Assembly: GCA_017481825.1 (NCBI GenBank)
Contig: JAFUOR010000095.1
Coordinates: 1-49,100, forward strand
DNA from: Clostridia bacterium
Lineage (GTDB): Bacteria; Bacillota; Clostridia; Christensenellales; Aristaeellaceae
Length of the DNA stretch: 49,100 nucleotides
Reading direction: 5' to 3'
The notes under the pieces were generated by a model, which was not told where the DNA came from, made no database searches, and saw only the letters and a list, made by a program, of their open reading frames with translations. A program made the position numbers and the translations under genes. Positions 8,960 through 23,444 of the stretch are shown here, in pieces; the first letter of the stretch is position 1; the number at the start of each line of letters is the position of its first letter.

Positions 8960-10900
8960 TCAGTCCATCACAACGTTCATTTCAAAAGGGGCAAGGGTGA
9001 TGGGCTGTCCGTCCAGCATGAAGGACTTCGGCTGATCGTCATTGTTGAAGATAAACCGGGCAGTGACGCCCTTGGCGGTGCGGGTCACCAGCTCCACGCG
9101 CGGGGGCAGGTCGGGGATGCAGGAGAGTTCGGCTTCCTTCACTGCCATGCGGGTGATGTGATCGTAGAGGGGCTGTGTACCCACCGTGCCAATGTAGTAC
9201 ACCCTGCCGCTGCCGTAAAGGTTGCGGGTGATGGCGGGCGCGCCGCGGAAGTAGTCTCCGTTGTAGCGGGCCAGCACTTCTGCCGTGTCGGTTTCGAGAA
9301 TGTCACACCACTGCTTGGCATGGACCTCCGTGCCGTCATCGAATGCGACGGGCACCTGCTCCCAGCCGATGGGCGCGTACTCCACCGCATGAACGCCCGC
9401 CATATCCCGATACGTGCCGGGGAGCTGTGCCATGAGGGCGTTGTTGTGCTCGTCTTTCACGCCGCTGCGGGTGGTCAGAATGACCGTTCCTCCCTGCGCT
9501 GCAAAATCATGCAGCCGCTGTGCCACGCCTGCGTCCGTCACATACATCTCCGGCGAGCACACGATACGGAAGCCGTCCAGCTTTTCGTGCTGGCCGATGA
9601 TATCCACATTCAGGCCCAGCCCGGCGAATGCCCGGTGAAGGCGCTGCAACTGCTCCAGATAGTAGTAGCCATCGGTCTGGGGCTGAATTTTGAAGGCATA
9701 TTCGTTGTCGAAGGAGAAGAGAATCGCTACATCCGCCTTGATCTCCGCGCCTTGCAGCTTTTCCAGCTCAGCGGCGGTTTTGCACATATCGGCAAACTCG
9801 TCGAAGCGCCGTCCCGGTACATTGGAGTGGTCGATCAGCCCGTGCCAGTGCATCTCCGCGCCGATGTTCGCTGTGCGCCAGCGGAAGTGCACCACCGTGT
9901 CTGCGCCATGGGCAAAGGCCTGCAGGGCGTATCCCTTGATCATGCCGGGCAGGGGAGGCTTCTCCATGGGAGCCCAGCAGCCCTTGCCGCCGCTGAGCTG
10001 CTCCATGATCCAGAAGGGCTGACGCTTCACGCCCCGCATCATGTCCAGATGGAAAGCGTGGGAATAGCAGCTCTCCGGATCACCCGGCAGACGGGTGGCA
10101 GGATAATTGTCATAGGATATGAAGTCGAGACCGGCAAACTGATTGTAGAAATCCGGCATGTGCTCACAGAACCACACATTGGTGGTCACAGGCCTGCCGG
10201 GGCAATGCGTACGGAGCTGCGCTGCCTGCCGGTTGCTGAAATCGATGACGTTTTCCGAGCAGAAGCGGTAGAAATCCAGCATGTACGCCGGGTTCTGCCA
10301 CGCGTGAGGCAGGGAGCCATAGGGCGGCCTGATCTGCGTCCAGGAGGAGTATTCGCCGCTCCAGACCACATTGCCCCAGGCACGGTTGAGGTTTTCGACC
10401 GTGCCGTATTTCTTTTGCAGCCATGCGCGGTATTTGCCGATGCAGTGCTCGCAGTAGCAGAAGTACGCCTCCAACTCATTGTCGATCTGCCAGCCGACAA
10501 CGGCAGGATTATCCGCATAATGCTTCGCCATTTCGATGGTGATGCGGTCAGCATAATGCAGGAAGGTCGGGTTTGTCACGCATCGATGGCTGCGGATGCC
10601 AAGGTTGGTGGGTGTGCCGTCCTTCTCCACATGCACGATGTCCGGGTGCTTTTCGTAGAGCCACATGGGCGGGCAGCTGGTGGGCGTGCACAGTACCACA
10701 TCGATACCCCGCGCGGCAAAGAGCGCAACAGCCTCGTCCAACCAGGCAAAGTCGAACGCGCCGTCCCGGGGCTCCAGACGGCACCAGGCGAACTCTGCCA
10801 GCCGCACCAGCTTCACGCCGGTTTCACGCATCAGGTCTGCATCCGCCGTCCAGAGCGTTCTGTCCCAGTGCTCGGGGTAGTAATCTACGCCGATTCGCAT
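8960..10900 (-). CDS. GH42 family beta-galactosidase
   Basis: This 646-residue protein has no signal peptide and should act in the cytoplasm on galactosides or short oligosaccharides. The TIM-barrel domain shows the acid/base Glu142 in WQIDNE and the nucleophile Glu300 in FWIMEQLSG. Cys107, Cys148, Cys150 and Cys153 match the zinc cluster of GH42 enzymes. A trimerisation domain (about 380-580) and a small C-terminal beta domain follow. It is the last gene of the AraC-led minus-strand operon, 22 bases behind an oxidoreductase. With GH26 neighbours it could remove galactose from galactomannan fragments, though GH42 enzymes vary in substrate. Confidence 0.93.
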   Translation of the reverse strand: MRIGVDYYPEHWDRTLWTADADLMRETGVKLVRLAEFAWCRLEPRDGAFDFAWLDEAVALFAARGIDVVLCTPTSCPPMWLYEKHPDIVHVEKDGTPTNLGIRSHRCVTNPTFLHYADRITIEMAKHYADNPAVVGWQIDNELEAYFCYCEHCIGKYRAWLQKKYGTVENLNRAWGNVVWSGEYSSWTQIRPPYGSLPHAWQNPAYMLDFYRFCSENVIDFSNRQAAQLRTHCPGRPVTTNVWFCEHMPDFYNQFAGLDFISYDNYPATRLPGDPESCYSHAFHLDMMRGVKRQPFWIMEQLSGGKGCWAPMEKPPLPGMIKGYALQAFAHGADTVVHFRWRTANIGAEMHWHGLIDHSNVPGRRFDEFADMCKTAAELEKLQGAEIKADVAILFSFDNEYAFKIQPQTDGYYYLEQLQRLHRAFAGLGLNVDIIGQHEKLDGFRIVCSPEMYVTDAGVAQRLHDFAAQGGTVILTTRSGVKDEHNNALMAQLPGTYRDMAGVHAVEYAPIGWEQVPVAFDDGTEVHAKQWCDILETDTAEVLARYNGDYFRGAPAITRNLYGSGRVYYIGTVGTQPLYDHITRMAVKEAELSCIPDLPPRVELVTRTAKGVTARFIFNNDDQPKSFMLDGQPITLAPFEMNVVMD

Positions 10901-10922
10901 GGCTTCTTCCTCCTGTCCGTGT

Positions 10923-12002
10923 TTATCGGATCACAACCGCCTTCTCCTGGGCCTGCAGGCAGAGCTCCGCCGCCTTGAAGGCATGGTGCTGGGTCATGGC
11001 GTTTTCTGTGCGGTTCAGCGAGTCGAGGATCAGTTGGCCAAAGAAGGGGCAGCCTGCACCGTCAGCGTTGAAGTAGCGTTCAGACTGGCCGTTGACGAGG
11101 AAAACATGGTCGCCGCCCTCCATGGAGGTACCGACGTTGATGTACTTGCGCAGCTCGATGTAGCCCTTCGTGCCGATGATGAGCGTGCGGCCATCGCCCC
11201 AGGTGCGCAGACCATCGGGCGTGAACCAGTCCACGCGGAAGTAGTTGGTTGTGCCCTTCGCCCCCACGATATTGCAGTCGCCGAAGTCGTCCAGTTCGGG
11301 ATACTGCGGATTGGCGTAGTTGCCGATGCGGCTGTAGGTGACCCGGGCCTCCTCTTCGCCTGCGAAGTACAGGTACTGCTCAATCTGATGGCTGCCGATG
11401 TCGCAGAGGATACCGCCGTACTTCTCCTTTTCAAAGAACCACGCCGGGCGGCTCGGTGCATTCAGCCGGTGCGGGCCGAAGCCCTCCACATGGATGACCT
11501 CGCCGATTTCGCCCGCTGCGATCATCTGGCCTGCCAGCGTTGCCGCCTGGCAGTGGATGCGCTCGCCGTAGTAGACCATGTACTTGCGCCCTGTTGCCGC
11601 TGCTTTTTTCTTTGCGGCATTCAGCTGCGCCATGGTGGTGAAGGGTGCTTTGTCGGTGAAGTAATCCTTGCCTGCGTCCATCACGCGAAGGCCCAGAGGG
11701 CCGCGCTCGCTGGTGATGTGCGCGCCGCAGATCATGTGGGTATCCTTGTCGGCGAGGGCCTCCTCCTCGCTGCGGGCGGCGAGGGCCTGCGGATAGGTCT
11801 TGATGAAGCGCGCCACCTTCTCCGGATCGGGGTCGTAGACGTACTTCAGCGTGCCGCCTGCCTCCAGCAGCGCGTTGGTCATGCCGTAGATGTGACCGTG
11901 ATCAAGGTGCGTGGCAGAAAAGACGAACTCGCCCGGCTTGACCACCGGCTGGGGCTTGCCCACGGGCGCGTAGTTCATACCGTCGGATGCGTTGACTTTC
12001 AT
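10923..12002 (-). CDS. Gfo/Idh/MocA-like oxidoreductase with atypical nucleotide motif
   Basis: This 359-residue protein has the two-domain layout of the family. The Rossmann part gives FVFSATHLDHGHIYGM instead of the normal GxGxxG glycine loop, and TDKAPF replaces the EKP motif. An N-terminal extension of about 25 residues precedes the first strand. The C-terminal domain carries GGILCDIGSHQIEQ, matching the usual GG...H..D/E active-site region. Such enzymes use NAD(P) to oxidise or reduce sugar hydroxyls. It starts 13 bases after the preceding oxidoreductase stop codon, so the two may act together. Substrate and cofactor are unknown; the altered motif leaves dehydrogenase activity uncertain. 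Confidence 0.82.
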   Translation of the reverse strand: MKVNASDGMNYAPVGKPQPVVKPGEFVFSATHLDHGHIYGMTNALLEAGGTLKYVYDPDPEKVARFIKTYPQALAARSEEEALADKDTHMICGAHITSERGPLGLRVMDAGKDYFTDKAPFTTMAQLNAAKKKAAATGRKYMVYYGERIHCQAATLAGQMIAAGEIGEVIHVEGFGPHRLNAPSRPAWFFEKEKYGGILCDIGSHQIEQYLYFAGEEEARVTYSRIGNYANPQYPELDDFGDCNIVGAKGTTNYFRVDWFTPDGLRTWGDGRTLIIGTKGYIELRKYINVGTSMEGGDHVFLVNGQSERYFNADGAGCPFFGQLILDSLNRTENAMTQHHAFKAAELCLQAQEKAVVIR

Positions 12003-12015
12003 CTGTTTCTCCTCC

Positions 12016-13167
12016 TCACTTCTGGTAGCTGCTGCCCAGCGTGATGGCGCCGGACAGTTCAGCCGCAGACACGGTTTTCTCGTAGAAATGCGGCACGCTC
12101 TTCATGATGCCCTCAACGGTATAGAAGGGATCGTCCTTTTGCAGCGGCAGCGTGACGGTCTGGCCGATCGTTCCGGCCTTGTAGATGGCGGTGATCAGCT
12201 CGATCGTGCGGCGGCCGTCCTCGCCGGCGATGGCGACGGGCGCATCTGTCTCAATGGCGGTCAGCACGTTTTCGATCTGCCCGTCGTGTCCATGCCACTT
12301 CATGCGGGGCAGCGCGGCGGCATAGTCAGCAATCTCTTTCTCCAGCGTCTCGTTGCGCGTGGGGAAGCCGTTGCCCATGGAGGATGATGCGTACACTGCA
12401 AAGGGTGCGGCAATCTTCGCCTTCTCGCACTGGAAAACCAGCTGCTGCTCCTCGCCGTGGTGCACCACCGAGGCAGTCAGCTGCGCCAGTGCGCCGGGGT
12501 ACTGCAGGATGGACGCAGAGAGATCCTCCACCTCCGCATTGTCATGGGCGACGTTCGCCAGGATGCTCGTCACCTTTTCGGGCAGACCCATCATCCAGCA
12601 AAGCATGTCGATGTGGTGGACGGCATGGTTCAGCGTGCAGCCGCCGCCCTCCTTTTCCCACGTGCCGCGCCACCACAGGTCATAGTAGCAGTGGCCGCGC
12701 CACCAGAAGGAATCCACCTGCGCCGAGCGCACCGGGCCTGCAAGGCCGGAATCCAGCACCGCTTTCAGATCGGCAATGGGCTGGCGGAAACGGTTCTGCG
12801 CGATGATGGAGAGCTTCCTGCCGCTCTCGTCCCGGGCGCGCAGCATCGCGTCGCACTCCTCAAGGGATGCGGCCATGGGCTTTTCGCACACGACGTTCTT
12901 GTCCGCGCGCAGGCTGTTGATGCTGATGGACGCATGCACATAGGGCGGCGTGCACACATCGACCAGGTCGATATCCGTGCGGTCAAGGATCTTCAAGTGG
13001 TCGTCATACACATCAGCGTTCAGGCCGTACTTTTCCTTCATGCGCTGTGCCTTTTCCGGCACGATGTCCACCAGCGCGACAATCTCGCACCGCTCCGGAA
13101 AGTTCAGGTAGGCCTGCACATGGGCATGGGCAATGCTGCCCGTGCCGACGATGGCAACTCGGATCAT
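12016..13167 (-). CDS. Gfo/Idh/MocA family oxidoreductase
   Basis: The 383-residue start is at MIRVAIVGTGSIAHAHV, where GAGGAGGAAAAC lies just upstream; a longer frame would run into the previous gene. The N-terminal Rossmann domain has GTGSIA and the cofactor-side EKP motif (CEKPMAAS). The C-terminal domain holds EGGGCTLNHAVHHIDM, the likely active-site His/Asp region. It is probably an NAD(P)-dependent sugar dehydrogenase. It lies between the cytosolic GH26 gene (16 bases upstream) and the atypical oxidoreductase (13 bases downstream), so the three are surely one transcript. Substrate not determinable. Confidence 0.93.
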   Translation of the reverse strand: MIRVAIVGTGSIAHAHVQAYLNFPERCEIVALVDIVPEKAQRMKEKYGLNADVYDDHLKILDRTDIDLVDVCTPPYVHASISINSLRADKNVVCEKPMAASLEECDAMLRARDESGRKLSIIAQNRFRQPIADLKAVLDSGLAGPVRSAQVDSFWWRGHCYYDLWWRGTWEKEGGGCTLNHAVHHIDMLCWMMGLPEKVTSILANVAHDNAEVEDLSASILQYPGALAQLTASVVHHGEEQQLVFQCEKAKIAAPFAVYASSSMGNGFPTRNETLEKEIADYAAALPRMKWHGHDGQIENVLTAIETDAPVAIAGEDGRRTIELITAIYKAGTIGQTVTLPLQKDDPFYTVEGIMKSVPHFYEKTVSAAELSGAITLGSSYQK

Positions 13168-13183
13168 GTCGTTTTCCTCCTCA

Positions 13184-14152
13184 TCAGCGGTCAATGGGCC
13201 GCGCGGGCAGCTTGTCCAGCGTGATCGCATAAGCATGGTGATACAGATTGCGCAGCGCTTCAAAGCTGTTATGCTGCTCGGTCAGGGTGAAGTCGCCGCT
13301 CCATGTCATGTACCACAGCCACGGCGCGTGCTCATGCTGGAGCGCGTCGCCATCGGGGATGATGCCCGTTTCTGCGATGGCAGCGCCCTTGTCAGCGGAT
13401 GTGATGTTCCGCAGCTCATCATATCTGTCCCGGAATGCGCCGTGGGCATGGGCTGGCGGATACTGATCGCGGGAGATGATATCGCAGTAGTCATCGCCCA
13501 CATAGCCCTCAGGCCGGGGATTGTTCCACACCCAGATCAGGTTGTCCAGATGATGGTGCTGCGTATAGCGGCGGAACATCAGCCGGTACAGCTCGCGTGC
13601 GGCTTCCATGCCCTTGGCGCCCCACCAGAACCACTTACCCTCCGCCTCATGGAAGGGCCGCCACAGGATGGGAATATGCGCGTCGCAGAAGGGCTCCAAA
13701 AGCGCCGCCATGTGGTCAAGGTCGTGAAGGAGGGCCGTATGCTCCGGTGTTCCTTCCACAAGGGCTGCTTCTGCGTCGAAGTCCGTATTTTCGGTGAAGA
13801 AGGCCTTGTCGCGTCCGCCCAGGGGCGAGAACCAGTGCCAGGTGAAGGTCAGCAGGCCGCCGCGCTGCGCCCAGGACATGGCCAGGTCAAGGGTGCCGCG
13901 GTTATTGAGCACCTCGGTCACGCAGGGCTCGCTTGCATCCTCCAGATGGATGTTGGGCGAATACGCCAGCAGCTCAAAGCCGCAGAGGGCGGGCAGCTTG
14001 CCAGTTTCCCGCAGGATCAGCGCCAGCTCCTCCTGCGCTCTGGTCAGGGTGTGCTGGCCCGTCAGGATACCCTTGCCCTCGATGCTGGCAAGGTATTCCA
14101 GCAGGGCACGGGCCTCCTGCTGGGCATTGGGATTGCATGGGGTGACGATCAT
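13184..14152 (-). CDS. GH26 family glycoside hydrolase, cytosolic (mannanase-like)
   Basis: This is a compact 322-residue GH26 catalytic domain without a signal peptide. The acid/base Glu169 is in WRPFHEAEG and the nucleophile Glu261 in AAIAETGIIPD, each preceded by the usual strands. It also carries FTWHWFSP and WVWNNPRPE, shared with the secreted GH26 at 19901. GH26 members cut beta-1,4-mannan, mixed beta-glucan or beta-1,3-xylan. As a cytosolic protein it most likely degrades imported manno-oligosaccharides, perhaps as an exo-acting or mannobiose-releasing enzyme. It lies between two oxidoreductase genes in the AraC-led operon. Confidence 0.92.
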   Translation of the reverse strand: MIVTPCNPNAQQEARALLEYLASIEGKGILTGQHTLTRAQEELALILRETGKLPALCGFELLAYSPNIHLEDASEPCVTEVLNNRGTLDLAMSWAQRGGLLTFTWHWFSPLGGRDKAFFTENTDFDAEAALVEGTPEHTALLHDLDHMAALLEPFCDAHIPILWRPFHEAEGKWFWWGAKGMEAARELYRLMFRRYTQHHHLDNLIWVWNNPRPEGYVGDDYCDIISRDQYPPAHAHGAFRDRYDELRNITSADKGAAIAETGIIPDGDALQHEHAPWLWYMTWSGDFTLTEQHNSFEALRNLYHHAYAITLDKLPARPIDR

Positions 14153-14178
14153 ATGTGCCTCCTGTTGATATCAGCGCT

Positions 14179-15354
14179 TCACCAGTTGACCTGCCAGCGC
14201 TGGCTGTAGCTGTCCGAGCCGCCTGTTCGCTCCTGTGCTGCCTTGAGGGCGGATGCCTTTGCGTGCTCTTCCAGCAGCCGGTCAAATGCAGCGGTATCCA
14301 TCGGCAGCGAGACGGGGGCATTGCCCGTCCACTGGGAGAGGTACGCAGCGTTGGACAGCGCCAGCTCGTTCAGCGCGTCACGCCCGGGAGAGAGCAGCGG
14401 TTCGCCATGGAGGATGCTGTTGGCCCAATTTTGAAGGATGCCTGCATGGGCCGTTTCCGGTTCGGTGGGACGGTATTCCTCATAATCAAAGGGAATCCTG
14501 GCGAAGTTCTCCTTCGACTGGAAGCAGAATTCCCGCTCCGGCTCCTTCAGCCGCCACCATTTGAGCACGCCGCCTTCCAGCACCAGCTTGCCCCGGTCGC
14601 CCGAGATTTCCAGCCGGTTCGTACCGGGGGATTCGCCGGTGGAGGTGATGAACACGCCCGTTGCGCCGTTGGCGTAGCGGGTGAAGATGGTCGCGTCGTC
14701 CTCCACCTCAATGCGGTGATAACGGGCAATGTCGCAATAGGCGCTGACGCTTTGGGGCATGCCGCAGATCCACTGCCACAAATCAAGGTTGTGCGGCGCC
14801 TGATTGAGCAGCACGCCGCCGCCTTCGCCTGCCCATGTGGCGCGCCATGCGCCGGAATCGTAATAGTGCTGCGTGCGGTACCAGTTCGTAATGATCCACA
14901 CCGTCCGCTTGAGTTCCCCCAGGTCACCGCCCTGCACGATTTCCCGCGCCCTTCGGAACAGCGGGTTCGTGCGCTGGTTGAGCATGACGGCGAAGGTGCG
15001 TCCGCTCCGGTCAGCGGCGTCGCACAGCGCCTGCGCCCTGGACAGCGCCACGTCGATGGGTTTTTCCACCAGGACATGCAAACCGGCCTGCAGCGCTTCC
15101 ATCGCCACATCGCTGTGTGCGGGATGCGGTACGGCGACGATCACCGCGTCTGCAGCGGCAGCGGCGATCAGCTCCTGTACGGAGGCATAGCAGGGCACAT
15201 CAGGAAAGTGCTCGCGGCAAAAGGTCTGCCGGGTGGGCGAAAGGTCACACAGCACACTGAGCGTCAGGCCGTCGATGCGGCCCTGCGCGATGCAGCTGGC
15301 ATGGGCAGAACCCATATTGCCCACGCCGATCACGGCTGTACGGATCGGTTTCAT
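14179..15354 (-). CDS. Gfo/Idh/MocA family oxidoreductase (first gene after araC-type regulator)
   Basis: This 391-residue protein starts MKPIRTAVIGVGNMGSAH, with the glycine loop at residues 10-15 and EKPIDVA as the EKP motif. The catalytic domain contains SGAWRATWAGEGGG followed by a NQAPHNLD site, a set it shares almost word for word with the oxidoreductase at 21409, so the two are close paralogues on opposite flanks of the locus. It is probably an NAD(P)-dependent dehydrogenase acting on a sugar or glycoside. GGAGG lies about six bases before the ATG. It follows the regulator gene by 43 bases and precedes the GH26 gene by 26. Confidence 0.93.
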   Translation of the reverse strand: MKPIRTAVIGVGNMGSAHASCIAQGRIDGLTLSVLCDLSPTRQTFCREHFPDVPCYASVQELIAAAAADAVIVAVPHPAHSDVAMEALQAGLHVLVEKPIDVALSRAQALCDAADRSGRTFAVMLNQRTNPLFRRAREIVQGGDLGELKRTVWIITNWYRTQHYYDSGAWRATWAGEGGGVLLNQAPHNLDLWQWICGMPQSVSAYCDIARYHRIEVEDDATIFTRYANGATGVFITSTGESPGTNRLEISGDRGKLVLEGGVLKWWRLKEPEREFCFQSKENFARIPFDYEEYRPTEPETAHAGILQNWANSILHGEPLLSPGRDALNELALSNAAYLSQWTGNAPVSLPMDTAAFDRLLEEHAKASALKAAQERTGGSDSYSQRWQVNW

Positions 15355-15397
15355 GATTCAACCTCCTGCACGGCATGCCCATCACGAAACTGTGCGC

Positions 15398-16267
15398 TCA
15401 CTCCTGCTGCGACTTGCTGTACTGATTCGGCGACTTTCCTGTGCGAGCCTTGAAGGCGCGGTAGAAACTCGTATAATCCGTAAAGCCGCTCTGCTCGCAG
15501 GCCTGATTGGGCTTTGCTCCCTGCTCAATCAGCTGCTGAGCCAGAATGATACGTCTGGTCAGGATGTACTGATAGATGGACATGCCGGTGTAATCCTTGA
15601 ATTCGTGCAGCAGTACGTACTTGCTGATGCCAAACACCTCCGCCAGATGATCCAGCGAAAGCGGCTGCGCGGCATTCTGGTTGATGTAGCGGATCAGGTC
15701 GTTCATCCGGGAGGATGCACTGTCTGCTTCCGGGGTGATGCTCTCCTCCAGCAGCTTGAGTAGTCTGATGAGATACATGGTCATCCGGCAGCGGTTGGCA
15801 AGGACGCCAGCAGGAGAGGTGTCCATCGCCGCCTCAATGATTTCATCGGCCATGGGAACAAGGTCAAGCACTGCCTGCTGGCCCGGGCGGAAGCAGTACC
15901 GTCCGCCCGCCGTCAGATTGTCCAGCTTCTCAATGAAATTGTAGTCCTCCGTGCTGACTGCGCTCAGATATTCCCTGGACAAATAAATATAGAACCGCTC
16001 ATAAGGCTGGGAGGGATCGGTGTGGGTAACACGGTGCATGCACTGGGGCGGATAGATCAGCGCTTCGCCAAGCACGGGATTCAGATCCAGCTCCTCCACA
16101 ATGACCTTCAAAGAGCCGCGCAGAAGAAAATAGATTTCATAGTGACCATGTCCATGATAAATGGACGGCTGGGGATTCGTGTTGGTGGAATGGTAGATCT
16201 CAAATTCACGCCCCTCGGGCATCTGATTTTCAAACCGCCAAACCGGGTGATTGATCATCTGAATCAT
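15398..16267 (-). CDS. AraC family transcriptional regulator
   Basis: The 289-residue protein has an N-terminal cupin-type sensing domain (HGHGHYEIYFLLRG, about residues 38-51) and a C-terminal double helix-turn-helix (about 190-285) with the family's end motif YTSFYRAFKARTGKSP. It should bind a sugar and activate the glycan genes on both sides of it. It is the first gene of the minus-strand operon. GAGGAG lies seven bases before the ATG at 16267, and a second ATG nine bases in is a weaker alternative. Confidence 0.95.
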   Translation of the reverse strand: MIQMINHPVWRFENQMPEGREFEIYHSTNTNPQPSIYHGHGHYEIYFLLRGSLKVIVEELDLNPVLGEALIYPPQCMHRVTHTDPSQPYERFYIYLSREYLSAVSTEDYNFIEKLDNLTAGGRYCFRPGQQAVLDLVPMADEIIEAAMDTSPAGVLANRCRMTMYLIRLLKLLEESITPEADSASSRMNDLIRYINQNAAQPLSLDHLAEVFGISKYVLLHEFKDYTGMSIYQYILTRRIILAQQLIEQGAKPNQACEQSGFTDYTSFYRAFKARTGKSPNQYSKSQQE

Positions 16268-16288
16268 GTCGGACTCCTCTGTATTTAT

Positions 16289-16317
16289 ATTTTACAGCAA
16301 TTTTTGCAAAAAATCAA
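16289..16317 (-). promoter_or_regulatory. Promoter of the AraC-led operon
   Basis: Minus-strand -35 TTGATT (16317-16312) and -10 TAAAAT (16294-16289) are 17 bases apart, just upstream of the regulator gene. The same TTGATT -35 with 17-base spacing occurs at the other minus-strand glycan promoter (23528-23500). Confidence 0.72.
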
Positions 16318-16341
16318 GATTTTTAAGAAGGATTTTGCAAA
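16302..16341. promoter_or_regulatory. Two TTTTGCAAA boxes in the divergent control region
   Basis: TTTTGCAAA occurs at 16302-16310 and again at 16333-16341, 31 bases apart, about three helical turns. They lie between the divergent regulator operon and the secreted-protein operon. The first box falls between -10 and -35 of the minus-strand promoter and the second upstream of it. Use as AraC-type regulator sites is inferred. Confidence 0.45.
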
Positions 16342-16410
16342 TGTTGATAGAATATCTATGACAACAAACGTTACATCTTCCCGCACATTGTGGCAGAAGG
16401 GAGGTTAATT

Positions 16411-16596
16411 CGGGACTTACAGCAGCAGGCTTTGGACGGCGGCTGCTGCAAGTCCCGGCCATCAGGAAGATCGTGAACGGAGCATTGCAAATCTTGCCTG
16501 ACGCTGTATTCTACCATAATCCCGTCAGGTAATTCAAGTCCCTGCGAAAGATCCGATGTCCCATTGAATCCCGGCAGGGCTGCGGCATTTGCCGCA
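16411..16596 (+). promoter_or_regulatory. Structured 5' leader of the secreted-protein operon
   Basis: The roughly 370 bases between the regulator start and the TTG start at 16639 hold no gene. The second half is a row of hairpins. CGGGACTT/AAGTCCCG (16411-16418 with 16450-16457) encloses GCAGCAG/CTGCTGC (16422-16428 with 16443-16449). TCAGGAAGAT (16462-16471) pairs with ATCTTGCCTGA (16491-16501) with one bulge. CCCTGC/GCAGGG spans 16540-16579. TGCGGCA/TGCCGCA (16581-16587 with 16590-16596) forms a tight stem. None carries a T-tract, so these are not simple terminators. I recognise no known riboswitch. Confidence 0.45.
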
Positions 16597-16638
16597 CCGA
16601 CCATCCCGGAGAGGGATAACCTGAGGAGGTTGCAAAAA

Positions 16639-18375
16639 TTGAAGAAGCTGCTTTCCTGTCTGCTGCTGATCGCCATGGTCATGAGCTGTGTGACCGCGAT
16701 GGCTGAATCAGCTCCTGCAACGATCATTGACTTTGTCGATGGCAATTACGCCTTTCTCGGCGTGGATACCACGGCTGGCAACGCAGACGCATGCGAGCTG
16801 TCCGTTGTGGACTACAACGGCGGCAAGGCGCTGCATGTGGATGTGAAGGCCAAGGTGCCCTACATCGCGCTGAACATCGAGGGGCTGCTGGGCGAGAACT
16901 ACGTAAAGCTTGCCTCCATGACCTTCGACGTGGGCGTGGAGCTGGGCAGCGACGGCAAGTTCTACTCCCAGTCCGGCAAGGTGTACACCGTGACCGGCGA
17001 GGATCTGGTCAAGACCGGCTACGACTGGTCCGTGTACATGAAGAACAAGAACCCCAAGACTGCCAAGGTCACCTTTGGCAGCACCTTGACCGCTGGCATC
17101 GGCGAGTACCTGCTCATCACCAAGGAAACGGACACCTTCGTCGATTCCGGCCGTTTCCCAGGTGAGGAACCCCGCGATATCTACCTGTCCAACCTGCAGT
17201 TCTTTGATGCTCAGGGCAATGCGCTGCCGCTGGATCTGTCTGCCGTGTGGAGCTCTCCTGTGACCGAGGCTGACCTGTCCAACCTGTCCGTGCTGACGAA
17301 CGTGGTGGAATTCCCCGGCTTCACCTGCGAGGCTGGCGGCTGGAGCCAGAACGGCTTTGACATTCCCGAGGAAGTCCGTGCGGCGTTGGTGCCCGGCTCC
17401 GTGGTCGAAATCTCCTTTGAGTCCGCCAACGGTACCATGTGGCTCGTGTTCCCCGATTCCGCTGCCGGCTGGAAGCGCATCGGCAACAACAATCAGGCCT
17501 CCATCAACAACTCCCAGACCACCGCGCAGATCACCTACGAGCAGATCGCCGCTGTGCTGGGCGAAGACACCTCCACCTGGGGCGGCCGCCTGCAGTGCGA
17601 GGCTGGCGATACCTGGAAGGTCTACTCCGTGAAGGTCGGTCAGGCTGCGCCCCGTCTGGCCTTGAGCAACCCGGTGGAATTCGCTGGCTTCACCTGCTCT
17701 GCTGGCGGCTGGAGCCAGAGCGGCTTCGACTTTACCCAGGAGGTGCTCGACGCCCTGCAGCCTGGCACGGCCATCGAAATCGACTTTGAATCTGAGGACG
17801 GCAGCATGTGGATCGTTCTGCCTGATTCCGCCGCTGGCTGGAAGCGCATCGGCAACAACGGCCAGGCGACCATCATCGGCAGCAAGGCTTATATCACCTA
17901 TGAGCAGATCGTTGCCGCTGTCGGCGAGGACAAGGCTGGCTGGGGCGCCCGCCTGCAGTGCGAGGCTGGCTCCGAGTGGAAGGTCTATGCGGTGAACGTG
18001 GGCAAGGTCAACCAGCTGACCGGCGTGTCCGGCGCGGTTGATTTTGCGGGCTTCACCTGTTCTGCTGGCGGATGGAGCCAGAGCGGCTTTGAAATGACCG
18101 AGGAGATCAAGACTGCGCTGGTACCCGGCTCCGTGGTCACCATCAGCTACGAATCCAAGGCGAACAACATCTGGCTGGTCTTCCCGGATTCTGACGCTGG
18201 CTGGAAGCGCATCCAGTCCCAGACCGCCGATACCGACGGCAGGACCGCGCAGATCACCTTTGAGGAGATCGCCGAGGTGCTGGGCGAGGATGTTTCTACC
18301 TGGGGCGCACGCATGCAGTGTGAATCCTCCGGCGCGTGGAACGTGTACAGCGTCACCGTCGGCCAGGCGCACTAA
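16639..18375 (+). CDS. Secreted protein with three tandem carbohydrate-binding-like repeats
   Basis: The 578-residue protein uses a TTG start nine bases after GAGGAGG; the first residues KKLLSCLLLIAMVMSCVTAMAES form a signal peptide cut after an Ala-x-Ala site. A beta-rich domain of about 190 residues (roughly 25-215) follows, then three similar repeats of about 112 residues at 223-335, 346-456 and 467-578. Each repeat has GFTC-AGGWSQ-GF, a W-LVFPDS core with a UGWKRI-like stretch, an AQITYEQIA helix and a W-RLQCE end. No catalytic residues, LPXTG or SLH anchor are visible. The fold is probably a beta-sandwich carbohydrate-binding module, by analogy with clostridial modules that share the GGW-Q pattern. 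It heads the secreted operon with the binding protein and GH26. Confidence 0.85.
   Translation: MKKLLSCLLLIAMVMSCVTAMAESAPATIIDFVDGNYAFLGVDTTAGNADACELSVVDYNGGKALHVDVKAKVPYIALNIEGLLGENYVKLASMTFDVGVELGSDGKFYSQSGKVYTVTGEDLVKTGYDWSVYMKNKNPKTAKVTFGSTLTAGIGEYLLITKETDTFVDSGRFPGEEPRDIYLSNLQFFDAQGNALPLDLSAVWSSPVTEADLSNLSVLTNVVEFPGFTCEAGGWSQNGFDIPEEVRAALVPGSVVEISFESANGTMWLVFPDSAAGWKRIGNNNQASINNSQTTAQITYEQIAAVLGEDTSTWGGRLQCEAGDTWKVYSVKVGQAAPRLALSNPVEFAGFTCSAGGWSQSGFDFTQEVLDALQPGTAIEIDFESEDGSMWIVLPDSAAGWKRIGNNGQATIIGSKAYITYEQIVAAVGEDKAGWGARLQCEAGSEWKVYAVNVGKVNQLTGVSGAVDFAGFTCSAGGWSQSGFEMTEEIKTALVPGSVVTISYESKANNIWLVFPDSDAGWKRIQSQTADTDGRTAQITFEEIAEVLGEDVSTWGARMQCESSGAWNVYSVTVGQAH
17305..18372 (+). repeat. 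Three tandem 111-113 residue coding repeats
   Basis: Repeat units lie at 17305-17643, 17674-18006 and 18037-18372, separated by about ten codons each. They share GFTC, AGGWSQ, GWKRI and LQCE-type landmarks, with the aromatic and cysteine positions conserved in all three. Confidence 0.9.
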
Positions 18376-18405
18376 TCCGGTACAGAATATACAGGAGGTA
18401 AGACA

Positions 18406-19803
18406 ATGAAGAAGTTGACTGCTCTGGCTCTGGCGCTTATGATGCTGCTCTCCATGGCTGGTATCGCCACCGCCGAGGCCCCCCGCCACATCGTGATCGG
18501 CACCACTTGGGATATTTTCTACGATTCCACCCATTTAAGCGTTGAGGACAACCCCGGCTATTCCGGCGATATCTCTCAGGACATGATGTTCGCCAAGGTT
18601 AAGGAAGTTGAGGAAGAGTGGAACGTCACCTTTGAGTTCATGAACATGACCTATTCCGGCTCCAAGGAGTCCATCAACACCTCCATTCTGGCCGGCACGC
18701 CTGACGCAGATGTGTATATGGTCGGCATGGCCGTGGCAGCCCCTGCCATAGCCAACGGTCTGGCCGTGGATCTTAAGGACGTGCTGCCTGCGGATCATCC
18801 CGTGATCACCGGTACGGATGAAGTCCTGTCCTATGTGGATGTGGGCAATGGCGGCGTTTCTCTGTTGATTGCCAACAAGAAGGAAAACATGGTTGCCGAT
18901 ACCAACCCGCTGGGTTTCAACCTGCAGATGATCGAGGACGCGAATCTGGAAGATCCGCGTGATCTGGTGGAGCGCGGCGAGTGGACCTGGGATAAGTTCA
19001 TCGAGTACTGTCAGGTGCTGACCAAGGATAAGGACGGCGATGGCATCATCGATGTTTACGGCTTCGGCGGCTGGCCGGAGGATTATCTGAACGAGCTGCT
19101 CATGTCCAACGGAACCTACATCGCTGCGAACACGACCGAGAACCTGACCTCTCCCGAGGTTGGCGAGGTGCTGCAGTTCATGCAGGATATGAATGTCACC
19201 TACGGCATCATGCATCCGATTCCCGAGGTCAACGGTTGGGACGTGTGCCGCTTCCTGTACCGCGAGCAGAAGGTTGCCTTCTCTCCTCTGGCTGCGTGGA
19301 TCATGGACAGCAACAGCGACTATGCCTATAAGCATCCGGAGCTTACTCCTCTGGAGTTCGATATGGTATTCGTTCCGTGGCCTGTTGGTCCCAGCGGCAA
19401 TGCGGAAACCAATGCCGGTAAGGCCATCGGCTCTACGGGGTATATGATTCCTGTGGGTGTGGAGGACCCCGAATTCGTCTTCAACGTGCTCTATGACATT
19501 CTGAATTGGTACAACTATGATCCCAACAACCCCCAGTCCGATGACGAGGCACTGGATATCCGCGACAACGAGGAAGCGCTGGGCTGGTGGTACGGCGTGG
19601 TTGCAAAGGATGTTGATCTGCAGGACTACAACTTCAACGTCATGTACGAAATGGGCCTGAAGACACAGTTCGACATGATCAACAACCTGGGCGTGAGCCT
19701 GGAGATCACCGCGCTGGTCAATGGCGATTACACAGTTGCCCAGTATCAGGAAATGTTCAAGCAGCCGATTCAGGATGCTATCACCGCCATCATGGGTGAG
19801 TAA
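18406..19803 (+). CDS. Extracellular solute-binding-like protein without lipobox
   Basis: This 465-residue protein has an N-terminal signal peptide (MKKLTALALALMMLL) with an Ala-x-Ala cleavage site near ATAEAP and no lipobox cysteine. It then shows the layout of family 1 sugar-binding ABC proteins: two alpha/beta lobes, a VYMVGMAVAAPAIANG segment near residue 105, WTWDKFIEYCQVLT around residue 193 and a KDGDGIIDVYGFGGW loop. Such proteins normally hand sugars to two permeases, but no permease or ATPase gene is next to it. It lies 30 bases after the repeat protein, within one transcript. Without a lipid anchor it would be released or held by a partner. Confidence 0.87.
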   Translation: MKKLTALALALMMLLSMAGIATAEAPRHIVIGTTWDIFYDSTHLSVEDNPGYSGDISQDMMFAKVKEVEEEWNVTFEFMNMTYSGSKESINTSILAGTPDADVYMVGMAVAAPAIANGLAVDLKDVLPADHPVITGTDEVLSYVDVGNGGVSLLIANKKENMVADTNPLGFNLQMIEDANLEDPRDLVERGEWTWDKFIEYCQVLTKDKDGDGIIDVYGFGGWPEDYLNELLMSNGTYIAANTTENLTSPEVGEVLQFMQDMNVTYGIMHPIPEVNGWDVCRFLYREQKVAFSPLAAWIMDSNSDYAYKHPELTPLEFDMVFVPWPVGPSGNAETNAGKAIGSTGYMIPVGVEDPEFVFNVLYDILNWYNYDPNNPQSDDEALDIRDNEEALGWWYGVVAKDVDLQDYNFNVMYEMGLKTQFDMINNLGVSLEITALVNGDYTVAQYQEMFKQPIQDAITAIMGE

Positions 19804-19835
19804 ACCTGCATACTGACAGGCACCGAACATACCCA

Positions 19836-19880
19836 GCCCCCGGAGCGTGAGCATTCCTGCGGCGCCCGGGGGCGTTTCTT
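19836..19880 (+). terminator. Possible intra-operon terminator
   Basis: GCCCCCGG (19836-19843) pairs with CCGGGGGC (19866-19873), followed by GTTTCTTTT. It stands between the binding protein and GH26 genes and could lower GH26 expression. The 22-base loop makes it a moderate terminator. Confidence 0.55.
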
Positions 19881-19900
19881 TTCAAGGAGGTTCTATCAGG

Positions 19901-21346
19901 ATGAAGAAGCTTGCATGGCTGTTGGCAGCAGCGCTGATGATGACGCTCTCCAGCGCAGCGCTGGCAGAAGAGACCCTCTACGAGGCAGAGAATGCCGTGC
20001 TGCACGGCAAGAGCACCGTGGCAACGGACGCCGCTGCCTCCGGCGGCAAGGCTGTCGGACGATTTGAAGGCAGTGAGGACACGGTGAATTTCATCATCAG
20101 CGTTCCGGCTGACAGCACGTATGACCTGACCTTTGTATGCAGGGGCATCGGCGGAGGCAAGACAAACAAGGTGTCCGTGGACGGTAAGCCGCAGGGCGAA
20201 TTCTCCTGCTCCGGCGAGGCATATGAGGCGGATACCCTGCGCGGCGTATGGCTGACGGCTGGCGAACATACCGTCACTGTGAACAAGTCATGGGGCTGGA
20301 TATGGCTGGACAGCCTGACCGTAACTCCGGCAGAGAAAATCCCGGACAGCGTGTACGATGTGGAGCCTGTCCTCACCAATCCCAACGCCAACGAGGATGC
20401 ACAGCAGCTCTTCACCTATCTGTGCGAGTGCTATGGCAAGGTCACGCTGGCCGGTCAGCACTGCGAGTACGGCACCATCGGCTCCGAATGCTATACGATC
20501 TATCAGGTTACGGGCAAGTACCCGGCTGTCCTCGGGCTTGACATGATGAGCTACAGCCCTGCCCGCCGGGAGCATGGCAGCAGCGGCGGCAGCTCCGTCG
20601 AGCAGGCGGTCAAGTTCCACGACCAGGGCGGCATCGTAACCTTCTGCTGGCACTGGAACGCCCCCAATGAGTACCTCAAGGACGGCACTGACAACGGCAA
20701 TCCCCGCTGGTGGGGCGGCTTCTACACCCGCAACACGGACTTTGACATTGAGGCCGTCATGAATGGCAGCGATCCCAGGGGCAAGGAATACCTCGACCGG
20801 GACATCAAAGCCATCGCCGAGCAGCTCCTGCGGCTGCAGGAGCAGGGCATCCCTGTCTTGTGGCGGCCCCTGCACGAGGCCTCCGGCGGCTGGTTCTGGT
20901 GGGGTGCGAAGGGCGCCGAGCCCTTCAAGCAGCTGTGGGTCTACCTCTATAACGAGCTGACCTGCACCTACGGCTGCAACAACCTCATTTGGATCTGGAA
21001 CGCCAGCACGGCTGAATGGTATCCCGGAGATGCATATGTCGATATCATCGGTGAGGATATTTATGCAGACAAGCACGATTACAGCGCTCAGAACTCGAAG
21101 TTTTCCAAGCTCCTGGACGTGCCGGGAGAAAACAAGCTCATCGCGCTGACGGAATGCGGCGTTGTGCCGGATATTGATCAGCTCATCCAGACCAATGCCC
21201 GCTGGCTCTGGTTCAACACATGGGGCGGCGACTTCGTGTACAAGAAGCTGAAGTACTCTGACGAATACACCGAAGCAGCGCTGCTCAAGAAAGTCTATGA
21301 CAGCGAGTACGTGATCACGCTGGACGAGCTGCCGGATTTTGATTAA
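19901..21346 (+). CDS. Secreted CBM35-like/GH26 glycoside hydrolase (mannanase-like)
   Basis: This 481-residue protein starts at an ATG ten bases after AAGGAGG. A signal peptide (MKKLAWLLAAALMMTLSSAALAEE) precedes a jelly-roll module (about residues 25-145) with the opening LYEAENAVLHG typical of CBM6/CBM35 domains. The GH26 catalytic domain (about 155-481) has acid/base Glu326 in WRPLHEASGGWFWWGAKG and nucleophile Glu418 in IALTECGVVPD. GH26 enzymes usually cleave beta-1,4-mannans. No cell-wall anchor is visible, so it is probably free outside the cell. It is related to the cytosolic GH26 at 13184, giving one inner and one outer copy. Confidence 0.94.
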   Translation: MKKLAWLLAAALMMTLSSAALAEETLYEAENAVLHGKSTVATDAAASGGKAVGRFEGSEDTVNFIISVPADSTYDLTFVCRGIGGGKTNKVSVDGKPQGEFSCSGEAYEADTLRGVWLTAGEHTVTVNKSWGWIWLDSLTVTPAEKIPDSVYDVEPVLTNPNANEDAQQLFTYLCECYGKVTLAGQHCEYGTIGSECYTIYQVTGKYPAVLGLDMMSYSPARREHGSSGGSSVEQAVKFHDQGGIVTFCWHWNAPNEYLKDGTDNGNPRWWGGFYTRNTDFDIEAVMNGSDPRGKEYLDRDIKAIAEQLLRLQEQGIPVLWRPLHEASGGWFWWGAKGAEPFKQLWVYLYNELTCTYGCNNLIWIWNASTAEWYPGDAYVDIIGEDIYADKHDYSAQNSKFSKLLDVPGENKLIALTECGVVPDIDQLIQTNARWLWFNTWGGDFVYKKLKYSDEYTEAALLKKVYDSEYVITLDELPDFD

Positions 21347-21355
21347 CGGACACAT

Positions 21356-21395
21356 AAGATGCCTCCCCGCACCGCTGTGGCTGGGGAGGCATCTT
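21356..21395. terminator. Bidirectional hairpin between convergent glycan genes
   Basis: AAGATGCCTCCCC (21356-21368) and GGGGAGGCATCTT (21383-21395) form a perfect 13-bp stem between the GH26 gene and the minus-strand oxidoreductase. T-runs are short on both sides. Confidence 0.72.
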
Positions 21396-21408
21396 GCGTT
21401 TGTGCCGC

Positions 21409-22593
21409 TTATTTCGTTCCGTTGAAGGTGTTGCTCAGATCAGCGACGACCGCCTGCGCGGCAGATGCTTTCTTGTGCCGGGAGGTGGCGATGCGTTTGG
21501 ACAGCTCCTCATAGAACAGATTCTCGTCGATGGGCAGCTCCACCTCCTTACCCAGGAAGGCGGACAGGTGCATGGCGTTGGACAGCATGAGGCCATGAAT
21601 GCCCTCGCGGCCATCGGCGATCATCTTTTCACCCCGCAGGATCGCACCGCCCCAGGCATTCACCACGCCCGTGTGCTGCTCGTTCAGCCCGTCAGTCTCC
21701 ACAACGCAGTCCACCGTCGGCATGCTGGCGAAGGGCTTCTTGTTGGCGGCGCTCCATTCCGGCTCGGAGACGCTGAATTCCTTCAGGTGCAACTGATTAT
21801 GCTCCACCACCAGCCTGGCCCTGTCCATCTGGATTTCGAAGCGGTTGGAGCCATGGGCGTCGCCGGTGGTGGTGACGAACACGCCCGTCGCACCATTTTC
21901 GTACTCCACATAGGTGGTCACATCGTCCTCCACCTCAATATCGTGCCACAGGCCGTATTTCAGGTGGGACTGTACCTTCACCGGCATGCCGCAGATCCAC
22001 TGCCACAGATCAAGCTGATGGGGACACTGGTTCAGCAGCACGCCGCCGCCCTCGCCCGCCCAGGTTGCGCGCCATGCGCCGGAATCATAATACACCTGCG
22101 GACGGTACCAGTCCGTGATGATCCAGTTGGTGCGGCGGATGCGTCCGTACTTGCCGGACTGCACCAGCTCGCGCATCTTGCGGTAGACGCAGTTGGTGCG
22201 CTGGTTGAACATCAGCCCGAACACCACCTCGGGATGCTGGTCTGCCATCTCATTCATTTCACGCACCTGCCGGGTATACACACCGGCGGGCTTTTCCACC
22301 ATGACATGAATGCTGCGCTTCATGCACTCAATGGCCAGGCGGGGGTGATCGTAATGGGGCGTGGCAATGATGCATGCGTCGATCAGATCACTGTCCAGCA
22401 TGGCGGCAGCGTCGTGGAAGAATGCAACGTCCTCTCCCAGACGCGTCTTTGCCCATGCTTCGCGGGCAGGGTTGATATCTGCCACCGCCGTCAGCACAAA
22501 ATCAGGGCATTCACCGTCCACCACGCGGCAGGCATGACCGCTGCCCATGTTGCCGATACCGATTACACCCAGACGAATCTTCTTCTCCATCAT
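21409..22593 (-). CDS. Gfo/Idh/MocA family oxidoreductase (paralogue of the one at 14179)
   Basis: This 394-residue protein has glycine loop GIGNMGSGH, the EKPAGV motif, and a catalytic domain with SGAWRATWAGEGGG and NQCPHQLD. These segments almost match the oxidoreductase at 14179, so the two likely act on related substrates. Two neighbouring ATG codons (22593 and 22590) are possible starts; the AAAGGAGG site suits the first. It follows the TIM-barrel gene by 11 bases, with its binding site overlapping that stop codon, so the pair is co-expressed. The dehydrogenase function is a family assignment; the sugar is unknown. Confidence 0.93.
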   Translation of the reverse strand: MMEKKIRLGVIGIGNMGSGHACRVVDGECPDFVLTAVADINPAREAWAKTRLGEDVAFFHDAAAMLDSDLIDACIIATPHYDHPRLAIECMKRSIHVMVEKPAGVYTRQVREMNEMADQHPEVVFGLMFNQRTNCVYRKMRELVQSGKYGRIRRTNWIITDWYRPQVYYDSGAWRATWAGEGGGVLLNQCPHQLDLWQWICGMPVKVQSHLKYGLWHDIEVEDDVTTYVEYENGATGVFVTTTGDAHGSNRFEIQMDRARLVVEHNQLHLKEFSVSEPEWSAANKKPFASMPTVDCVVETDGLNEQHTGVVNAWGGAILRGEKMIADGREGIHGLMLSNAMHLSAFLGKEVELPIDENLFYEELSKRIATSRHKKASAAQAVVADLSNTFNGTK

Positions 22594-22604
22594 CCTGTCC
22601 TCCT

Positions 22605-23444
22605 TTACAGCAGCTCTTTGAGCGCGCTGCAGGCCGCGTCAAAGGCTGCGTCGCTGCTCTCGTAGCAGTAGGCGTCCACCTGCGTCCTGTTTCCGGCCTG
22701 CTCCAGATCCTTCAGGCCATCAAACACGCTCAGGTGCGGCTCGACGGTCACATCACAGCCGCCGCGGCTGCGGAAATCATCCAGAATGGCGCGCACATAG
22801 CCAGTGCCCTTGCCGGCGGGAACAACTTTGCCATCCGGCAGAGCATCCTTGATGTGCAGGTACTTGATCCGGCTGCGCAACAGCTTCCAGGCTTCTACCG
22901 TATCCTGTCCGCACTGAATGAAATTCGCCGGATCAAACACGCCCTCAAGCTCGGGGAAGGTGTTCAGCAGCTCCCAGCAGCGATCGGCCATGTCGCCGTA
23001 GATGCCCTTTTCATTTTCATGACACAGGCTCACGCCGCTGCCCTTTGCCACGCGTACCATCTGGCCAACCCGGTCAATGACCTGATGGCGGTACATATCC
23101 GCCTGCCCCTCCGGAACGAAAAAGGAAAACATGCGCAGGTTCTTCGCACCCAGGATGTCCGATAGCGTCAGCACGTGGCGCAGCTTGTCCAGATGCGCGG
23201 CGAAGCCATCCGATGCGATGCCAATCTTGCCGATGGGCGATCCTATGGACCAGACGCAAAGCCCGGCATCGTCCAGCTTGCGGCGCACCTCGCGGGCCTT
23301 TTCCAGCGTGATGTCAGCAATGTTCTGACCATCTACTCCACGGATTTCCAGGCCCTTCAATCCATTGCGGCGCATTGCAGCAATCTGGCCATCCAGCTTT
23401 CCAGAGGCCTCGTCGGCAAAGGCATAGATGTTCAATGTATTCAT
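22605..23444 (-). CDS. Sugar phosphate isomerase/epimerase-like TIM-barrel protein
   Basis: This 279-residue protein belongs to the AP-endonuclease-2/xylose-isomerase-like superfamily. Four candidate metal ligands are visible at the expected strand ends: Glu143 (CHENEKG), Asp171 (FDPANF), His197 (YLHIKDA) and Glu235 (TVEPHLS). An intact metal site argues for isomerase, epimerase, dehydratase or lyase chemistry on a sugar or keto-glycoside. The start at 23444 is set by a GGAGGG box; a frame reaching further upstream is not needed. It is the first gene of a pair with the oxidoreductase at 21409. Such isomerase-like/Gfo-Idh pairs are known in keto-sugar routes, e.g. C-glycoside cleavage, so the link is plausible but inferred. 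Confidence 0.9.
   Translation of the reverse strand: MNTLNIYAFADEASGKLDGQIAAMRRNGLKGLEIRGVDGQNIADITLEKAREVRRKLDDAGLCVWSIGSPIGKIGIASDGFAAHLDKLRHVLTLSDILGAKNLRMFSFFVPEGQADMYRHQVIDRVGQMVRVAKGSGVSLCHENEKGIYGDMADRCWELLNTFPELEGVFDPANFIQCGQDTVEAWKLLRSRIKYLHIKDALPDGKVVPAGKGTGYVRAILDDFRSRGGCDVTVEPHLSVFDGLKDLEQAGNRTQVDAYCYESSDAAFDAACSALKELL

Follow-up and report, generated by a model that had tools for sequence, protein, structure and literature searches.

A candidate oxidative glucuronide-cleaving pathway set among mannanase and galactosidase genes in a Clostridia bacterium

Gene content of the locus

We examined a 49,100-nucleotide stretch of the genome of a Clostridia bacterium of the family Aristaeellaceae (assembly GCA_017481825.1, positions 1 to 49,100 of contig JAFUOR010000095.1), hereafter called the window. 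At positions 8960–23444, genes for two GH26 enzymes and one GH42 enzyme lie among genes for four Gfo/Idh/MocA proteins (Gfo1 to Gfo4) and a TIM-barrel protein (TIM1). A sequence-only reading had placed an AraC regulator, two GH26 enzymes (one secreted, one cytosolic), a GH42 enzyme, four Gfo/Idh/MocA proteins and a TIM barrel in one neighbourhood, and all of these parts were recovered there in Pfam scans. The genome comprises 3.16 Mb on 163 contigs and is 90.9% complete and 5.4% contaminated.

The minus-strand genes form two units. The first consists of TIM1 (22605–23444), a 279-aa TIM barrel of the AP_endonuc_2 family (Pfam, E 6e-18) with an HENEK motif, and Gfo4 (21409–22593), which starts 11 bases past TIM1 and is a predicted glycoside (glucuronide) 3-dehydrogenase of the type of PDB entry 8TDI. 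The second unit begins with an AraC-family regulator (15398–16267; Pfam HTH_18 and neighbourhood maps) and continues with Gfo1 (14179–15354), a second 8TDI-type dehydrogenase with its own subclade, and a probably cytosolic GH26 enzyme with no signal peptide seen by eye (13184–14152; PF02156, E 4e-58). Gfo2 (12016 to about 13167, with a start codon at either 13167 or 13194) and the atypical Gfo protein Gfo3 (10923–12002) follow, and the unit ends with a GH42 enzyme of the beta-galactosidase family, probably also cytosolic (8960–10900; PF02449, E 2e-131). Intergenic gaps within both units were 11–43 bases, as is typical of operons. A common AraC site for the two units was sought and rejected, both at 20 bases (best match 16/20, shuffles 13–16) and at 14 bases (best match 12, shuffles 10–12), the controls being 12 plain letter shuffles per length.

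Two plus-strand genes not mentioned in the sequence-only reading separate these units, namely those for a probably secreted protein with three CBM65 domains (16618–18375; PF18259 in three stretches, start set by eye), in which Pfam found no catalytic domain, and for an ABC sugar-binding protein (18406–19803; PF01547, E 6e-13). On the same strand lies the gene for the second GH26 enzyme, a CBM35-GH26 protein (about 19901–21346; PF02156, E 8e-72, and PF16990), probably secreted, whose start, set by eye, looks like a signal peptide. The GH26 enzymes and the binding protein are present as in a standard beta-mannan utilisation locus. Such loci usually also include a GH130 phosphorylase and an alpha-galactosidase; neither was found among the 40 window frames scanned, and the remaining genome was not searched for them. 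A GH2 gene of the beta-mannosidase type was found at 42816–45359, some 21 kb away from the closest gene for GH26. Elsewhere in the window, positions 30443–32968 encode a protein of 841 aa that carries an SH3 domain along with seven PG_binding_1 stretches.

The genome contains nine matches to PF01408, four of which lie inside 8960–23444. By a simple binomial estimate for a stretch picked post hoc, an equally tight cluster would occur anywhere with a probability of ~1e-5. The G+C contents of the eleven genes ranged from 0.54 (AraC) and 0.55 (binding protein) up to 0.63, with 0.60 for the window, and thus did not clearly point to a chimeric contig.

Relatives of the dehydrogenases and TIM barrels

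Gfo4 and Gfo1 matched 8TDI over nearly the whole chain, with 45% identity (E 1.8e-103) and 42% identity (E 6e-92), respectively. This structure was deposited as 'P2B11 Glucuronide-3-dehydrogenase', the name from which its characterisation is taken here. The second-best solved relatives followed at E 2e-37 for Gfo4 and E 1e-33 for Gfo1. In a tree of 92 rows, from which the 33 of 125 rows forming the Gfo3 group had been dropped beforehand, Gfo1, Gfo4, 8TDI and proteins of Niallia and Cetobacterium shared one 60-row clade with a support of 98/92. Gfo4 fell within a TIM-barrel-linked group and Gfo1 formed part of a small group of its own, while Gfo2 and other Gfo rows lay outside the clade; the placement of long-branch rows (YcjQ, YcjS, Cetobacterium GfoB and others) is unsure. 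Compared with P2B11, the locus differs in having two 8TDI-type paralogues and a partner, TIM1, that lacks a close solved relative. The P2B11 protein of 8TDI is said to be part of a broad-specificity pathway reported by Nasseri et al. in Nature in 2024.

Clustering of all four oxidoreductases with inositol or other non-glycoside dehydrogenases had been named in the sequence-only reading as an outcome that would refute its keto-sugar proposal; this outcome did not occur. All four Gfo proteins scored only 41–109 bits against the inositol 2-dehydrogenase model TIGR04380, whose curated cut-off is 355 bits, and this identity was rejected. The models of the glycoside/disaccharide 3-dehydrogenases BT_2158 and BT_2159 (NF058561 and NF058563; cut-offs of 750 and 650 bits) gave only 21–43 bits for Gfo1, Gfo2 and Gfo4 and no match for Gfo3. 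Since Gfo1 and Gfo4 belong to the 8TDI clade, C3-keto chemistry is likely for these two proteins and an inositol dehydrogenase function is unlikely. For two of the four Gfo proteins, the keto-sugar proposal is likely correct as to the kind of chemistry.

We also compared the TIM barrels. In 27 aligned sequences, H142, E143, N144, E145, H197 and E235 of TIM1 were invariant and D171 was nearly so; of these, E143, D171, H197 and E235 would form the metal site. Of 26 TIM1 frames taken from plasmid records and other families, 25 retained the HENE motif; the one without it is a fragment from Arthrobacter. The AlphaFold model of TIM1 (pLDDT 92) matched tagatose 3-epimerase, YcjR and AtHYD in Foldseek at a TM of about 0.7 (0.69 for AtHYD, 8ro4), a likeness at the superfamily level. 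Sequence searches found no solved relative at E 1e-4, and a TIM1 profile reached four, the best being Art22 (E 6e-12) and AsbF (E 5e-11), the latter listed as a probable 3-dehydroshikimate dehydratase. Assignment of TIM1 as a YcjR orthologue was rejected because sequence similarity was absent (E 9.5). TIM1 is probably a 3-keto-uronide hydratase or lyase.

A second barrel family, TIM2, is encoded outside the window. Its profile matched PDB entries 8tcs, 8tcd, 8bvk and 8tct at E 5e-32 to 3e-31, with E 8.6e-32 for 8BVK. PMC10628242 describes 8BVK as AtOGE, an O-glycoside beta-eliminase in which His132 and His134 form an H-x-H motif and the H134A variant is dead. All 12 TIM2 proteins examined, which came from plasmid records and other families, carried H-x-H. 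The window genome has a single TIM2 match, also with H-x-H, on another contig (C2) beside a second TIM1 gene. This second TIM1 is 51% identical over the matched part and lies divergent from TIM2 near the contig end (L160:288-2050). A Gfo protein 58% identical to Gfo4 is encoded at the edge of contig C155 and is a possible partner of the second TIM1. In seven genomes of one genus (L218-L221, L223, L225 and L226), TIM1 occurs with an other-type Gfo and an H-x-H TIM2, and in L218 importer-like genes follow this set.

Gfo2 and Gfo3 are a second conserved pair, separate from TIM1-Gfo4. The best PDB relatives of Gfo2, 3q2i and DgpA (E 5e-27), are both distant. The likeness to the puerarin C-glycoside operon DgpA/B/C lies in this distant relation of Gfo2, Gfo1 and Gfo4 being much nearer to 8TDI; no DgpB-like family turned up among the 40 window frames scanned. 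Gfo3 barely cleared the PF01408 cut-off (24.1 vs 24 bits) and grouped with 2p2s (E 4e-102) and 3u3x, both deposited as putative oxidoreductases. In nine aligned sequences, from Clostridia to rhizobia, the canonical GxGxxG loop is replaced by a conserved H-x-H; Lys118, Asp201 and His205, which we take to be active-site residues from their roles in the family, are kept. Matches to Gfo3 of E 1e-60 or better were present in 83 of 200 genomes of the family, and 20 of 200 had a match to the cytosolic GH26, with the genome under study included.

Among the 28 Gfo3 regions analysed, out of 83 Gfo3 places besides that of the window, Gfo2 was a same-strand neighbour in 20, and an 8TDI-type Gfo lay within 8 kb in 15. 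Genes read as permeases and a binding protein (from sequence rather than Pfam) were often near. Relatives of Gfo3 were also found in 171 records, of which four neighbourhoods were read. In two rhizobial records these relatives adjoin another Gfo, and in Ketogulonicigenium, uxaC, mannitol dehydrogenase and uxuA genes are divergent from a Gfo-Gfo3 pair. At a Gfo match in Eubacterium eligens, a second Gfo adjoins, and the annotation lists no TIM1 or uxaC/uxuA set, iolB alone being about 10 kb away.

Uronate context and the predicted pathway

A genome scan yielded 48 TIM1 loci, titled as Clostridia or other Bacillota and in many cases named after ruminant or rabbit gut. Gene counts in these loci rest on a home-made codon-score caller trained partly on the window genes and their matches. 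In 32 of the 45 testable loci, TIM1 was followed within 2.5 kb by a same-strand gene for an 8TDI-type Gfo, and TIM2 was near TIM1 in 12 of 48. In five near-relative loci, an AraC relative with 72–77% identity stands directly after TIM1-Gfo4, which ties the regulator to the keto module; GH10 is near in three of them, suggesting that a xylanase can occupy the place of the mannanase. In another genus of the family (L164), genes read from sequence rather than Pfam as a binding protein and two permeases are followed by TIM1, Gfo4, Gfo1 and Gfo3, and the glycosidase queries found no match within 8 kb of Gfo3. In L072 the same set of TIM1, Gfo4, Gfo1 and Gfo3 is spread over two strands. These two loci indicate that the gene set can stand without the hydrolases of the window.

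TIM1 was also found in 22 plasmid records, of which we read six neighbourhoods; an Arthrobacter record brought the number to seven. In four of the seven, TIM1, Gfo and the AtOGE-family TIM2 lie beside uxaC or uidA, and in five, glucuronate genes (uidA, uxaC, uxuA or mannitol/fructuronate dehydrogenase) are near TIM1. The order in Cetobacterium is AraC-TIM1-Gfo-Gfo-TIM2-MFS-uidA, where TIM2 is an isomerase-like gene matching our TIM2. Niallia and Subdoligranulum have TIM1-Gfo-Gfo-TIM2 with UxaC, and Arthrobacter has TIM1 in fragments together with TIM2, Gfo, UxaC and a mannitol/fructuronate dehydrogenase. A mannonate dehydratase is near TIM1 in Haladaptatus. The glucuronide set of Niallia is followed by genes for a LarA-like protein and an SDR (L176:13286-15366). 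Proximity of TIM1 to Gfo genes is thus seen in Bacillota, Fusobacteriota and Actinomycetota, in agreement with the association of Gfo and TIM-barrel proteins proposed in the sequence-only reading. The window genome itself encodes UxaC and UxuA.

These arrangements resemble the Agrobacterium GlycDH-AtOGE-AtHYD-reductase operon, in which, according to PMC10628242, two oxidoreductases and two sugar-phosphate-isomerase-like TIM barrels in one operon carry out C3 oxidation, elimination, hydration and reduction. The same complement stands in a row in the Cetobacterium, Niallia and Subdoligranulum plasmid records; TIM2 is like AtOGE in profile match and H-x-H, and TIM1 resembles AtHYD in fold at the superfamily level only. 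The locus differs from that operon in its 8TDI-type dehydrogenases, in the glucuronate context, in having TIM2 outside the window, and in the added Gfo2-Gfo3 pair and glycosidases. E. coli ycjM-W likewise has annotated 3-dehydrogenases (YcjS, YcjQ), a TIM barrel for 3-keto-glycosides (YcjR) that TIM1 resembles by fold, and an ABC importer, but TIM1 has no sequence similarity to YcjR, and the Gfo proteins are distant from YcjS.

On balance we favour, by a modest degree, an oxidative glucuronide-cleaving pathway set among the mannanase and galactosidase genes. The locus would join mannan/galactan hydrolases (two GH26 and GH42) to two conserved redox glycosidase gene sets. We infer the reaction steps and the substrate from gene content, relations and linkage. 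TIM1-Gfo4, with Gfo1, would most likely act on an imported oligosaccharide by stripping off a glucuronosyl (or another uronosyl) residue. Judging from the relation to 8TDI, Gfo4 or Gfo1 would oxidise C3 using NAD+. By analogy with the Agrobacterium enzymes (PMC10628242), the acidified C2-H would then permit elimination of the glycosidic bond by a metal-dependent TIM-barrel enzyme, and a second such barrel would hydrate the 3-keto-glycal. The eliminase would likely be TIM2, encoded on the other contig, with TIM1 the likelier hydratase or a second lyase. A Gfo protein would reduce the 3-keto-uronate to glucuronate, Gfo4 and Gfo1 presumably serving as the oxidising and reducing dehydrogenases, and glucuronate would enter the genome-encoded UxaC/UxuA route. 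GH26 and GH42 would trim the remaining chain by plain hydrolysis. An acidic hemicellulose or gum would fit as the polysaccharide.

Alternative explanations and implications

Several observations weigh against a glucuronide-cleaving pathway. The AtOGE-type TIM2 with H-x-H is not in the window, where the TIM barrel carries HENEK, and the upstream regions of the two minus-strand units yielded no regulatory motif in common. Identities of 42–45% to 8TDI are insufficient to fix the substrate. Among the TIM1 loci, an 8TDI-type Gfo was absent within 6 kb of TIM1 in 11 of the 45 testable loci, and UxuA, GH88 or GH2 contexts totalled only 8 of 48, a raw count without a background rate. Neighbours were counted only for families with a query sequence, so that other uronate enzymes may be missed, and one member of each family, GH42 excepted, was Pfam-checked. 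Within 8 kb of TIM1, the raw counts, again without a background rate, were 3/48 for UxuA, 3/48 for GH88/105, 2/48 for GH2, 2/48 for GH26, 2/48 for GH42 and 4/48 for GH10; one of the three UxuA matches is a 91-aa end piece. The UxuA and GH88/105 matches themselves speak for the uronide reading, as does one further locus, L069, with UxaC about 9 kb from TIM1. In Paenibacillus, TIM1-Gfo is near an alpha-rhamnosidase with no uronate gene recognised, and TIM1 of Halomontanus has rhamnose-type neighbours. Queries for UxaC, UxuA, UxuB, GH2 and GH88 matched none of 20 regions sampled from other families of the phylum, four of which (L214, L215, L216 and L227) are short, at 3.4–8.2 kb. Gfo genes were near TIM1 in 14 of these 20 regions, three clearly of the 8TDI type, one weakly so and ten of other type. 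Two regions (L212 and L213) have TIM1 and an 8TDI-type Gfo on one strand, yet without uronate matches. The ten other-type Gfo genes together with the lack of uronate matches argue that TIM1 is not uronide-specific. TIM1 therefore partners Gfo enzymes in general, with the specificity residing in the 8TDI-type dehydrogenase.

One alternative, close to the sequence-only reading, is that the Gfo and TIM proteins oxidise and cleave manno-oligosaccharides or galactosyl-mannobiose and so replace a beta-mannosidase or alpha-galactosidase. GH26, GH42 and three Gfo genes are on one strand with 13–26 bases between neighbours, which makes co-transcription likely, and no alpha-galactosidase family member was among the window frames scanned. 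Furthermore, GH42 and GH26 stand beside TIM1-Gfo4-AraC in L035, and GH26 does so in L037. By contrast, GH26 was near TIM1 in only the two loci counted above, and the GH26 query had no match within 8 kb of Gfo3 in any of the 28 Gfo3 loci. In L154, GH26 adjoins GH42 with no Gfo gene near, and no other locus examined had GH26 and GH42 set among Gfo genes as in the window. TIM1/Gfo modules mostly occur without mannanases; glucuronate genes are near TIM1 in five of the seven plasmid neighbourhoods, and no mannan gene was recognised in any of the seven. In addition, the window already has a beta-mannosidase-type GH2, and the nearest solved relative of Gfo1 and Gfo4 is named a glucuronide dehydrogenase. 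Mannan is therefore a weak candidate as the substrate of the keto pathway, and we consider this alternative unlikely.

Equally improbable, in our estimate, is a broad-specificity redox glycosidase, in which the 8TDI-type Gfo and TIM proteins accept many glycosides and the neighbours vary with the polysaccharide served. The presence of TIM1 near GH10, GH26, GH42, GH88/105, GH2 and GH78 genes is consistent with such a system, and a pathway of this breadth is reported to have been described by Nasseri et al. in 2024, whereas the glucuronate context is common to four plasmid records in three phyla and the molecule name of 8TDI is specific. A chance neighbourhood, in which unrelated dehydrogenases for free sugars, polyols or inositols lie next to mannan genes, would accord with a gene order known solely from this genome among the loci examined and with the plus-strand cassette that splits the two units, but it is highly improbable given the tight PF01408 cluster, the gene pairs conserved across other genera and phyla, and the scores below the inositol dehydrogenase cut-offs.

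The general kind of pathway, in which a keto-glycoside is cleaved by oxidation, elimination, hydration and reduction, is already known. In the literature searched, which left out most subscription papers, neither the uronide gene set nor TIM1 was described, and the combination of genes and TIM1 is undescribed within that scope. As a more tentative extension, TIM1 with its HENEK motif may represent a 3-keto-uronide hydratase or lyase of a class not yet described, with which ruminant gut Clostridia, together with 8TDI-type dehydrogenases, might remove the glucuronic acid of hemicellulose or gum without a hydrolase. Here the module might be wired into a mannan/galactan operon, with the loop-less Gfo3 as an unusual redox or non-redox partner.

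Redox glycosidases have only recently joined the known routes of glycan breakdown, and searches restricted to hydrolase families overlook them. The locus defines a testable set (TIM1, TIM2, an 8TDI-type Gfo and a partner Gfo) with a glucuronide as the predicted substrate, and TIM1, TIM2 and the 8TDI-type Gfo occur both in Clostridia of the gut and on plasmids from Fusobacteriota, Bacillota and Actinomycetota. The locus further suggests that redox sets of this sort get inserted in classical polysaccharide loci. If the predicted pathway is true, it would bear on the removal of hemicellulose side chains and on glucuronide turnover in the gut.

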